A stretch of DNA of 64,000 bases from Phycisphaerae bacterium (GTDB lineage Bacteria; Planctomycetota; Phycisphaerae; UBA1845). The notes beneath the pieces were generated by a model. It searched no databases, was not told the origin of the DNA, and saw nothing but the letters and a program-made list of their open reading frames with translations. Location: the NCBI GenBank assembly GCA_013360585.1, contig JABWBH010000011.1:1-64000 (forward strand), read 5' to 3'. Shown here piece by piece: positions 26,466-29,946 of this stretch. Made by a program: the position numbers and the translations under genes. Every line of letters begins with the position of its first letter. The stretch's first letter is position 1.

Positions 26466-26897
26466 ATGACGGTGCAGTTCATGTCGACGCCGGAGGAAGT
26501 CGCCTCATGTTACCCGGTGATGGTTCAGCTTCGCCCGCATCTGAGTCGAGAAGGGTTTCTCGCCGCGGTGATTCGCCAGCGTGAGCAGGGCTACCGGCTG
26601 GCCGGGGCGGTTGATGCCGGCGGGAAGGTTGCGGCGGTAGCGGGATTCCGGTTCTTCGACGCGCTGGCGTGGGGGCGCATCCTGTATGTTGATGATCTGG
26701 TGACGGACGAGGCTCGGCGGTCACAAGGGTTGGGGCAGGCGTTGTTCGACTTTCTGGTTGCGCTGGCGCGTCAGGAGGGGTGCGACGAGTTTCACCTCGA
26801 TTCCGGCGTGCAGCGCTTTGATGCACACCGATTTTACCTTCGCAATCGAATGCGGATTTCGAGTCATCACTTTGCCCTGCCGCTGGCGACCCGTTGA
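26466..26897 (+). CDS. GNAT-family N-acetyltransferase
   Basis: A 143-residue acetyltransferase of the GNAT fold. Seen: VAAVAGFRFFDALAWGRILY (strands 2-4), YVDDLVTDEARRSQGLGQAL with the acetyl-CoA pyrophosphate loop R-x-x-G-x-G, and a helical C-terminal part ending in a short strand. Length matches a single-domain GNAT. The acceptor could be an amine on a small molecule or protein; it cannot be told from sequence. GGGGAA about nine bases before ATG 26466 is a modest ribosome binding site. Its stop is about 65 bases before the cytochrome gene's chosen start. Confidence 0.85.
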   Translation: MTVQFMSTPEEVASCYPVMVQLRPHLSREGFLAAVIRQREQGYRLAGAVDAGGKVAAVAGFRFFDALAWGRILYVDDLVTDEARRSQGLGQALFDFLVALARQEGCDEFHLDSGVQRFDAHRFYLRNRMRISSHHFALPLATR

Positions 26898-26962: not shown

Positions 26963-28831
26963 ATGCCGATGCGAAGGACGTATCTCGTCAGCCTGTGCCT
27001 GTTGCTGGAGCCGGCCGCCGCAACGTCGAGCGTCGCGCAGAGCGTCGATCCGGACAACTGCCTGTTGTGTCATCAGTTTCGCGGGCTTTCACGTTTCGAC
27101 CGTCAGCGGGACGAGCTGCACGTCTACTTCGTCGACCCGTCGTACATGCACGATCTGGCTGGTCCGCACGCGCGACTTGCCTGCACTGACTGCCACCCGC
27201 GCGAGGAGGTTCGCGTGGTTCCTCATGCGCCGGTGTCGCGCGTGGACTGCACGCGGACGTGCCACATCGCCGGGGCGTCGGGCGTGATGACGACGTTCAG
27301 TCATGCGGGAGTCGCCGAGGCGCTTCGCGGCGGCGTGCATGATCCCGCGATCATGCGGGGCTTGCCTCTGTCGGAAGGTCCGCTGCTGGCGCAGGACCAG
27401 TCCGCCTGTCTTTACTGTCATGACGAGCCGGTGTTCCGCGGGATCGAGCGTGCGCTGCCGCAACTGGCGAGGTTCGGGGATGATGCCCTCGCACGTTGCA
27501 CGACGTGTCATAAGGACCAGCTCGGCGTGGACGTGGCGTACGCGTTGAAGCACGTCGCTGCCCGGCTTCAACCGTCGCGATCGACGCTGGATGTCGCGCA
27601 GGTCTGTGCCGTGTGCCACAGCGACCCGGCGTTTCACGCTGAACCCGGTCGTCACGACGCGGTGGCGAGCTACATGCGCACCTTTCACGGGAAGGCAGCG
27701 CTTCTCGGGGACGAGTCGACCGCGTCATGCATTTCGTGTCATGCTTCAGGCAACCGCGATGTTCACGCGATGCTTGCGCATACCGACCCGGCCTCTCCGA
27801 CGCACACGGATCGGCTCCCGACGACATGCAGCACGATCGCCTGTCACCCCGGGGCGTCGCCCAGCCTGGCGGACACCGGTGTGCATCTCGATCTGGCGGC
27901 GTCGCGCGGAACGATCGAGTACCTGCTGGCGGCGGCGTTCATCCTGCTGACGACGCTGACGTTCGGGCCGTCCGCGATTCTGGCCGTGCTTGAACTGGTG
28001 CAGCTTGTCGCCGGGCGGGAGTCGCCGCGCGACGAACACGTGCGTGAACTGACCGATCGGTTGATGGCGCGCCCGGACGGGCGTCGTCGGCTGGTGCGTT
28101 TCACCGTTCCGCAGCGGATTCAACACTGGATTCTGGCGGGGTTGTTCGTGCTGCTGGTGCTCACGGGCTTTCCGCTGAAGTTCGCGGATCAGGGGTGGTC
28201 GGCGTGGTTGATCCGCGGGTTCGGGGGGCTGGCGGCGGCGCGGGCCTTGCATCACTGGGCGGGGATTCTGCTGGTGCTGGGTTTCCTGAGTCACATGATG
28301 CACACGATGCTGCTGGTGGTGCGGCGCTCGCGACGACCCGGTCTGGACGGACGGCCGACCGGCATGCTGGCGTCACTGCTGGCGCTGCCGATGTGGATGA
28401 CGCTGGATGATCTGCGGAAGCTTCGGCATCTTCTGGCCTATCTTTTCTTCCTGCGGTCCGATCGTCCGAAGTTCGGGCGTTTTGCGCTGAAGGAGAAGTT
28501 TGAGTACATCGGGGTCTTCTGGGGGACGATGATCCTCGGCGTCACGGGCATGATTCTCTGGGGCGAGCAGACGGCGTCGCACCTGATGTCGGGCCGGGTG
28601 TTCAACCTCGCGGCGATTGCGCACACGTACGAAGCGTTTCTCGCGCTTGTCCACGTCGGCATCCTGCACACGTACAACGTGATGCTTTCGCCCCACGTGT
28701 TTCCGCTGTCGCCGGCGACGATCACCGGAACAACGCCGCCGGGGGAACTCATCGAAGGACACGCCGCGTTTGTTGAAGACGCTGCGCGGGAGCTGGGGCT
28801 GCATCCGCACGAGGAGGGAGGCGCGCCATGA
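26963..28831 (+). CDS. Eight-haem-motif cytochrome c fused to cytochrome b-like membrane domain
   Basis: A 622-residue fusion. After a signal peptide (TYLVSLCLLLEPAAA), residues about 33-295 hold eight c-type haem sites: six CxxCH (CLLCH, CTDCH, CLYCH, CTTCH, CAVCH, CISCH), one CxxxCH (CTRTCH) and one CxxxxCH (CSTIACH). A hydrophobic helix (IEYLLAAAFILLTTLTF) leads into four or more membrane helices with histidines in typical b-haem positions (IQHWILAGLF, LHHWAGILLV, LSHMMHTMLL, AHTYEAFLALVH). This resembles the gamma/membrane subunits of formate dehydrogenases and other quinol-linked enzymes. It should pass electrons between the quinone pool and periplasmic haems. ATG 26963 is chosen because it precedes the signal peptide. 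Its stop overlaps the next start by four bases. Confidence 0.88.
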   Translation: MPMRRTYLVSLCLLLEPAAATSSVAQSVDPDNCLLCHQFRGLSRFDRQRDELHVYFVDPSYMHDLAGPHARLACTDCHPREEVRVVPHAPVSRVDCTRTCHIAGASGVMTTFSHAGVAEALRGGVHDPAIMRGLPLSEGPLLAQDQSACLYCHDEPVFRGIERALPQLARFGDDALARCTTCHKDQLGVDVAYALKHVAARLQPSRSTLDVAQVCAVCHSDPAFHAEPGRHDAVASYMRTFHGKAALLGDESTASCISCHASGNRDVHAMLAHTDPASPTHTDRLPTTCSTIACHPGASPSLADTGVHLDLAASRGTIEYLLAAAFILLTTLTFGPSAILAVLELVQLVAGRESPRDEHVRELTDRLMARPDGRRRLVRFTVPQRIQHWILAGLFVLLVLTGFPLKFADQGWSAWLIRGFGGLAAARALHHWAGILLVLGFLSHMMHTMLLVVRRSRRPGLDGRPTGMLASLLALPMWMTLDDLRKLRHLLAYLFFLRSDRPKFGRFALKEKFEYIGVFWGTMILGVTGMILWGEQTASHLMSGRVFNLAAIAHTYEAFLALVHVGILHTYNVMLSPHVFPLSPATITGTTPPGELIEGHAAFVEDAARELGLHPHEEGGAP

Positions 28832-29946
28832 GCGGATCGTCGCGCGGTCGCGCGATCAGGTGGTTGGGCGCGCTGGGTCGCGCCGGGCGCGCCGCCGGGA
28901 AGCGGGCTTACGCGCTCGCCCTGATCGGGGTGATCGGTTACTCGAGCTTTTTTGCGTTCCGCTACCTGGTTTACACGTTGATGCTTCCAGCGGAGGCGCC
29001 GGCGCAAGTGACGCAGCTTCCGCGGCGCCTGGACAGCCGCGTTCTCGAGACCGACCGCGCGGCGTGGGCGGGGCTGCGGACGGCGGAGCACGCCCGAGCG
29101 CCACTCTCGCATTATCATCGCCTCGACACGTGGATCCAGCCGGACCGGGCGAACAATTGCACGACCAGCGGGTGTCACCCGCCGCTGCCTCATGCGGAGC
29201 GCAAGGAGGTCCGGGCCTTTCTCAACATGCACGCCACGAGCATGCACTGCGGCGTCTGTCACATGCAGACGAATGAGCAACCGCTGAACCTGGCCTGGTA
29301 TGACCCGGCAACAGGCGCGTCCCGAGGCGTACCGGCCGTGCTCGAAGCTTACGCGAAACTCTTGTCGATCGAGGACCAACCCGGAGGGTATGACGAAGAC
29401 GCCCGTCGCGTGCTCGTGGACCTCCTGCGCCGCGCGGCGGTTGAGGCCCAGGACGGCGCGATCCTCATCACGTTGGCGGATCATCTTCGCCGTCTGTCGC
29501 CGGAAGCGGTCGAAACCGCAGATGTACTTGCCGGGGCGAGGGCGGTTCTGCCCCGCTTCTTCCGGGGCGAATACGGCGCGAAGCTCGCCCTGCGCGCCGC
29601 AGGCACCGAGGCGCCGATCCTGGCGCATCCTGGGGTGGAAAGCGAGATCGAGCGCTACCGGGCGACCGCTGGCGCGATGACCGACGCGGAAAGAAAGGAT
29701 CTCGTCGATCGGCTGCACTCGCTGCGGCGGACTGAGGCGTTGAAATGTTCGGATTGTCACGCGGACGGCGGGATCGTGGATTTCACCGCCGCCGGGTATC
29801 CGCCGCAGCGCGTCCGCGAGCTGACGGGTACGATCGTCGCCCGCATGATTCAGCACATTTCCGACGGTTCGCCGTTTTATCTTCCGGAGTTTCTCACGGC
29901 CCCCGGGACGGGTGAGCCGGAGACGGGTGAGGGTTCTGCGCCGTAG
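28828..29946 (+). CDS. Membrane-anchored three-haem-motif protein
   Basis: A 372-residue protein, overlapping the previous gene by ATGA, so translation is likely coupled. A basic N-terminus and one transmembrane helix (residues about 27-53, YALALIGVIGYSSFFAFRYL) anchor a large extracytoplasmic domain. Three haem motifs are seen: CxxxxCH in NNCTTSGCHPP, CGVCH and CSDCH. The haem motifs flank a roughly 170-residue haem-free helical region rich in Arg/Ala (LLRRAAVEAQDG, IEDQPGGYDEDARR). I do not recognise the family. It probably forms a complex with the upstream fusion and is its electron acceptor or donor. No terminal oxidase or reductase catalytic subunit is adjacent. Confidence 0.82.
   Translation: MSGSSRGRAIRWLGALGRAGRAAGKRAYALALIGVIGYSSFFAFRYLVYTLMLPAEAPAQVTQLPRRLDSRVLETDRAAWAGLRTAEHARAPLSHYHRLDTWIQPDRANNCTTSGCHPPLPHAERKEVRAFLNMHATSMHCGVCHMQTNEQPLNLAWYDPATGASRGVPAVLEAYAKLLSIEDQPGGYDEDARRVLVDLLRRAAVEAQDGAILITLADHLRRLSPEAVETADVLAGARAVLPRFFRGEYGAKLALRAAGTEAPILAHPGVESEIERYRATAGAMTDAERKDLVDRLHSLRRTEALKCSDCHADGGIVDFTAAGYPPQRVRELTGTIVARMIQHISDGSPFYLPEFLTAPGTGEPETGEGSAP

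Follow-up and report, generated by a model that had tools for sequence, protein, structure and literature searches.

The stretch of DNA analysed here (the window) comprises 64,000 nt from the genome of a member of the Phycisphaerae (Planctomycetota), and all positions refer to its forward strand. It carries a pair of genes, the first encoding an octahaem cytochrome c fused to a cytochrome b domain and the second a trihaem cytochrome, here called the partner. Their features are listed in Table 1. The start of the fusion was placed at the ATG given there; an upstream TTG at 26894 would give a protein of 645 aa, and the alignment favours a start near the ATG.

Table 1. Features of the octahaem cytochrome c-cytochrome b fusion and its trihaem partner.
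Feature	Positions	Strand	Basis
Octahaem cytochrome c-cytochrome b fusion, 622 aa	26963-28831	+	ORF reading, Pfam, alignment
Periplasmic octahaem c domain, residues 29-312, with eight invariant non-motif His	27047-27898	+	sequence, alignment
Fusion haem motif 1, CLLCH	27059-27073	+	sequence, alignment
Fusion haem motif 2, CTDCH	27182-27196	+	sequence, alignment
Fusion haem motif 3, CTRTCH (CX3CH), spacing invariant (n=23 sequences)	27248-27265	+	sequence, alignment
Fusion haem motif 4, CLYCH	27407-27421	+	sequence, alignment
Fusion haem motif 5, CTTCH	27497-27511	+	sequence, alignment
Fusion haem motif 6, CAVCH	27605-27619	+	sequence, alignment
Fusion haem motif 7, CISCH	27728-27742	+	sequence, alignment
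Fusion haem motif 8, CSTIACH (CX4CH), spacing invariant (n=23 sequences)	27827-27847	+	sequence, alignment
FdnI-like cytochrome b membrane domain, residues 373-592	28079-28738	+	PF01292, profile match to 1kqf chain C, hhalign
Trihaem partner, 372 aa, start overlapping the fusion stop as ATGA	28828-29946	+	sequence, alignment
Partner N-terminal membrane anchor, residues 26-50	28903-28977	+	hydropathy; long helix 5-52 in model
Partner haem motif 1, CTTSGCH (CX4CH)	29158-29178	+	sequence, alignment
Partner haem motif 2, CGVCH	29248-29262	+	sequence, alignment
Haem-free helical stretch of partner, residues 151-296, less conserved	29278-29715	+	alignment, model
Partner haem motif 3, CSDCH	29746-29760	+	sequence, alignment

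Six CxxCH motifs, one CX3CH and one CX4CH make up the eight haem motifs of the fusion. Pfam returned MtrC/C7-type haem domains and, at residues 379–574, PF01292 (cytochrome b561 type; 1.9e-8); the window's own genome has no other PF01292 match. Exactly eight further histidines of the c domain are invariant among the 23 aligned sequences (69, 88, 114, 126, 197, 242, 268 and 308), and because this number equals that of the haems all eight are expected to be bis-His ligated. An AlphaFold model from a six-sequence alignment was too poor to reveal the haem chain (mean pLDDT 39.4). Against genomes of the same genus, dN/dS of the fusion was 0.10–0.23.

The family profile of the membrane domain matches chain C of 1kqf, which is FdnI, the gamma subunit of E. 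coli formate dehydrogenase-N. Direct alignment of the b domain with FdnI by hhalign gave a probability of 95.9 (E 5.7e-9). Hydropathy and the low-confidence model indicate one helix at ~317–349, followed by four core helices. H388, H430, H554 and H569 of the fusion, all invariant, align with His18, His57, His155 and His169 of FdnI, the b-haem ligands in the structure of FDH-N. Since these four positions are kept, the fusion probably binds two b haems. The four-helix b domain and all four ligand positions are thus shared with FdnI, whereas FdnI is without c haems and works with FdnGH, neither of which is true of the fusion. No NrfD-like or bc1-type (PF00033) cytochrome b, looked for as a sign of Alternative complex III or of cytochrome bc1, was found in either protein with Pfam or NCBIfam.

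The partner gave nothing above threshold in Pfam and matched no named family in Pfam or NCBIfam. A search of the PDB returned a single weak match, 1sp3 (E 5.5e-4), confined to the region of haems 1–2. The AlphaFold model, again from six aligned sequences, had a mean pLDDT of 54.8 and, like that of the fusion, was of too low quality for a fold search or for tracing the haems; dN/dS against same-genus genomes was 0.20–0.27. Mean modal identity is 0.50 in the haem-free stretch, compared with 0.73 around haems 1–2 and 0.59 around haem 3, and two relatives carry large inserts in that stretch. With conservation below that of the parts that bind haem, and with such inserts tolerated, it is probably a helical spacer rather than an unrecognised catalytic domain.

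None of the eleven haem motifs of the two proteins, expanded spacings included, varies among the 23 Phycisphaerae pairs aligned. The layout of six CxxCH, one CX3CH and one CX4CH in the fusion and two, none and one in the partner recurs in the loci compared. In two genomes from different families, G055 (L041:10104-13049, 981 aa) and G044 (L036:7571-10540, 989 aa), an extra copy in which the octahaem-b and trihaem genes form one reading frame lies beside the separate pair; each has 11 c-haem motifs, exactly the sum of the two parts (8, 1 and 2). Given this invariance, the recurring layout, the exact sums in the fused copies and the low dN/dS, the motif pattern is not due to chance. The partner is present in 21 of 60 genomes searched, and fusion and partner occur together in all loci compared. 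The overlap of the genes, this joint occurrence and the natural one-frame fusions support a physical complex of the two proteins, predicted to hold eleven c haems. Among 292 genomes sampled across the phylum, the only full-length, high-scoring match to the fusion came from the window's own genome, and as far as sampled the clade appears confined to Phycisphaerae. A plasmid collection gave no match. An apparent split version was seen in family f65 (G403:C18:4597-6244; G431:C50), in which a c-domain frame of ~365 aa adjoins a cytochrome b encoded on its own (297 aa).

The sequence and the invariance in 23 pairs bear out the initial annotation in its motif count for the fusion and in its description of an ATGA-overlapping trihaem partner with one CX4CH. 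Its haem-free helical domain is indeed unrecognised, but looks more like a less-conserved spacer than a catalytic domain, and the profile search that it proposed, run here on both proteins, placed the fusion among known domains and left the partner with no named family. Its claim that the expanded motifs require a tolerant ligation machine did not hold. The organism's own genome encodes an ordinary system II, with ResB and CcsA genes adjacent on contig C73; surveys of multihaem proteins routinely count CX3CH and CX4CH motifs (PMC10734462), and a CX3CH is present in homologues of ImcH (PMC6295460). With such motifs routine and ordinary system II genes present, no special tolerance need be assumed. 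Further ResB and CcsA genes lie beside multihaem genes in relatives (L040:13101-16623; L063:1-2627), and CcsA alone does so in L025:1-1155. The genome also contains two COX1 genes, and so the organism probably respires oxygen as well.

The CbcL/MtrH/MtoC proteins combine a multihaem c domain of 3–23 motifs with a HydC/FdnI-like b domain bearing conserved histidines (PMC6295460). They usually have six transmembrane segments, in some cases four or five, and occur in 15 phyla, two planctomycete members being counted; their genes are often found beside other multihaem genes, in hosts such as Geobacter, Rhodoferax and Dechloromonas (PMC6295460). They act as inner-membrane quinol/quinone oxidoreductases of extracellular electron transfer (PMC6295460, PMC12307469). 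The fusion has that architecture, with an N-terminal c domain of eight invariant motifs and a C-terminal HydC/FdnI-like b domain with conserved histidines, the comparison with CbcL being one of description, not of sequence. The two proteins do not both match a named complex, the outcome that would have refuted the initial annotation: the fusion fits an architecture class and the partner no named family. The pair differs from the class in that one CX3CH and one CX4CH are included among its eight haems, in the dedicated, overlapping gene for a membrane-anchored trihaem protein and in the association with a 20-haem NHL cytochrome described below. Other planctomycete multihaem–FdnI fusions (L067–L077) have the same domain order and 26–29% identity to the fusion, but carry 10–21 haems, and the trihaem partner was not matched in the flanks searched. 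Up to 18–21 haem motifs occur in one such protein (L069, L071, L072–L075).

The new element of the system is the trihaem partner. In Geobacter the trihaem PpcA takes electrons from CbcL (PMC12307469), and PpcA-E, being next in line after CbcL, hold a position comparable to that of the partner, by analogy and with no claim of homology. PpcA is small, soluble and diffusing, whereas the partner is a protein of 372 aa anchored in the membrane. By this analogy, the tethered protein could do PpcA's job without diffusion.

In relatives the pair is surrounded by large multihaem genes. Families that recur there are 20–24-haem cytochromes bearing an NHL beta-propeller, 12-haem proteins whose N-terminus is NapC/NrfH-like, c554-like proteins of 9 haems and proteins of 7 haems. 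Co-occurrence was assessed in 218 evenly drawn members of the class, the 20-haem NHL gene being called at E up to 1e-60. The partner was found in 26 of these genomes and the 20-haem gene in 27, 25 of them with the partner; the 20-haem gene thus occurs in 25 of 26 partner genomes as against 2 of 192 others (Fisher 2e-29, genomes treated as independent though related). The initial annotation had looked to a conserved neighbour in related genomes, with a reductase as its example. The neighbour found is this cytochrome, which lies within 6 kb of the pair in 14 of the 25 genomes. Among the members listed of families f4 and f8, 18 have both partner and 20-haem gene and 6 have neither. Fisher p-values overstate the association by ignoring the relatedness of genomes; firmer evidence comes from the recurring physical linkage and from the clean separation within families. 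In the window's own genome the 20-haem gene is on contig C1, apart from the pair. It lies directly downstream of the pair in a genome of the same genus (G002), and the two therefore probably became separated in the window's lineage. Its haem number is near that of PCC3 of Gallionellaceae, a periplasmic cytochrome of 21–27 haems proposed to span the periplasm (PMC10734462); the likeness is one of haem number, and the 20-haem protein differs in carrying an NHL propeller. Selenocysteine or readthrough in the 20-haem gene was considered and rejected, the reported TGA being a plain terminator.

Other genes near the pair were also recorded. At L027:2023-6152 an OmcA/MtrC-family decahaem gene (TIGR03507) and an octahaem tetrathionate-reductase-family gene (TIGR04315), both above cut-off, are divergent from the pair. 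At L033:3144-5096, L029:14245-16173 and L034:7489-9543 a nine-haem cytochrome fused to a Rieske domain is followed by a cytochrome b gene, that is, a multihaem bc-type complex.

At loci L040–L043 three genes, for a 4-haem, an NHL and an 8-haem protein, lie upstream of the pair and point the same way; at L041–L043 they are preceded by a second, OmcE-like 12-haem gene. At L041 the gene calls show a frame on the opposite strand where the NHL gene would be, and at L043 a NapC-like 12-haem gene lies between. The same OmcE-like set, plus a cyclophilin, is present in the window's own genome on contig C83 (L059), a different contig from that of the pair. The C83 12-haem protein is homologous over residues 20–221 to the OmcE filament subunit (7tfs; E 3.5e-27), and the 4-haem protein matches 9yuq (1.3e-8) and, more weakly, 7tfs (4.2e-5). 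In Geobacter, OmcE assembles into filaments outside the cell (PMC12954529, PMC12307469). The C83 protein, a genomic associate of the pair and not part of it, differs from the OmcE nanowire (7tfs; PMC12954529) in having eight additional haems, the OmcE-like domain and its extension being one protein (L059:9081-10865), and is a putative wire. An OmcE-like 12-haem gene occurs in all 26 partner genomes and in 34 of 192 others (Fisher 2e-17, genomes treated as independent); 34 of the 60 genomes with such a gene, out of 218, are thus without the pair. A beta-barrel-like gene is present as one copy in each of eight genomes tested, the window's own included (C21), and adjoins the OmcE-like genes in G053 and G059. 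The encoded protein has no Pfam match and, judged from its strand-like pattern and C-terminus, is a putative outer-membrane porin. The initial annotation had left the terminal partner open. In the window no catalytic subunit is adjacent; relatives make the question less open by offering candidates in the 20-haem NHL cytochrome and, in four genomes, the OmcE-like genes.

We lean towards reading the pair as a cytoplasmic-membrane quinone:cytochrome c oxidoreductase of the Cbc (CbcL-like) kind that feeds a multihaem conduit, probably an extracellular one. The haem motif and ligand inventory, the homology of the b domain to FdnI, the coupling of the two genes and their linkage and co-occurrence with the 20-haem and OmcE-like genes are observations; we infer quinol as the donor, the outward direction and the order of the carriers, as well as the extracellular end point, which is drawn from gene co-occurrence. 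The FdnI-like domain with its two b haems would exchange electrons with the quinone pool. Quinol would be oxidised there and the electrons passed along the periplasmic domain, by way of its eight c haems with their expected bis-His ligation, then to the three c haems of the membrane-tethered partner, to the 20-haem NHL-propeller cytochrome and finally to a conduit in the outer membrane that has OmcE-like cytochromes on its extracellular side. Against this, the window genome has its pair on one contig and the 20-haem gene and OmcE-like set on two others, and many genomes with an OmcE-like gene are without the pair.

The same module might instead feed periplasmic or surface-bound multihaem reductases (9-haem c554-like, octahaem or 7-haem) rather than an extracellular wire. 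At 12 of 23 loci the 9-haem c554-like protein adjoins the pair or lies close by, often as a divergent neighbour, the 7-haem family is found at 7 loci, and the octahaem gene is that of L027. We regard this as unlikely, since such neighbours are not seen around the window's own pair, the 20-haem gene accompanies the pair with hardly an exception and no pair-bearing genome lacks the OmcE-like gene.

It is quite unlikely, in our estimate, that electrons flow the other way, from an extracellular donor (Fe(II), another cell or a cathode) through the wire to the quinone pool, as proposed for MtoC-type and Uet-type systems. Nothing here fixes the direction: CbcL/MtrH/MtoC homologues occur in Fe(III) reducers and Fe(II) oxidisers alike, no sequence feature separating the two (PMC6295460), and the two COX1 genes would be available for the final oxidant. 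The C83 set also resembles, by its list of parts, the Uet pathway of Tenderia and Gallionella (tetrahaem, undeca- or dodecahaem and NHL proteins, peptidyl-prolyl isomerase and porin), in which an FdnI-fusion injector or a 20-haem NHL protein is not listed (PMC10734462). That the fusion is an ordinary gamma subunit of a formate dehydrogenase or hydrogenase which happens to bear c haems is highly improbable: TIGR01583 (formate dehydrogenase gamma), TIGR02125 and PF01292 do match the b domain, but the two NCBIfam models score far under their equivalog cut-offs (59.9 against 115.85 bits and 23.4 against 121.5 bits), and beside the pair no molybdopterin or NiFe subunit is seen in the window, where the initial annotation had likewise placed no known catalytic subunit, or among the relatives' annotated neighbours, which are multihaem cytochromes.

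Reading the pair as a CbcL-like injector leads to a broader and more tentative proposal, to which we give somewhat less than even credence: Phycisphaerae may possess a complete, undescribed extracellular conduit. Its parts would be an injector with 11 c and 2 b haems, whose trihaem partner represents a new family, a 20-haem NHL cytochrome serving as wire in the periplasm, a barrel in the outer membrane, and OmcE-like nanowires that are in part extended by fusion to eight further haems. Literature searches on CbcL in planctomycetes and on nanowires in Phycisphaerae yielded, as specific results, only the two planctomycete homologues counted in PMC6295460, and no paper describing cytochrome nanowires, or such an electron route, in Phycisphaerae was found. 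The pair would tie a membrane cytochrome that reacts with quinones to genes for OmcE-type wires, in a class that is large and for the most part uncultured. If this is true, planctomycetes of reactors and groundwater could trade electrons with minerals, electrodes or neighbouring cells.
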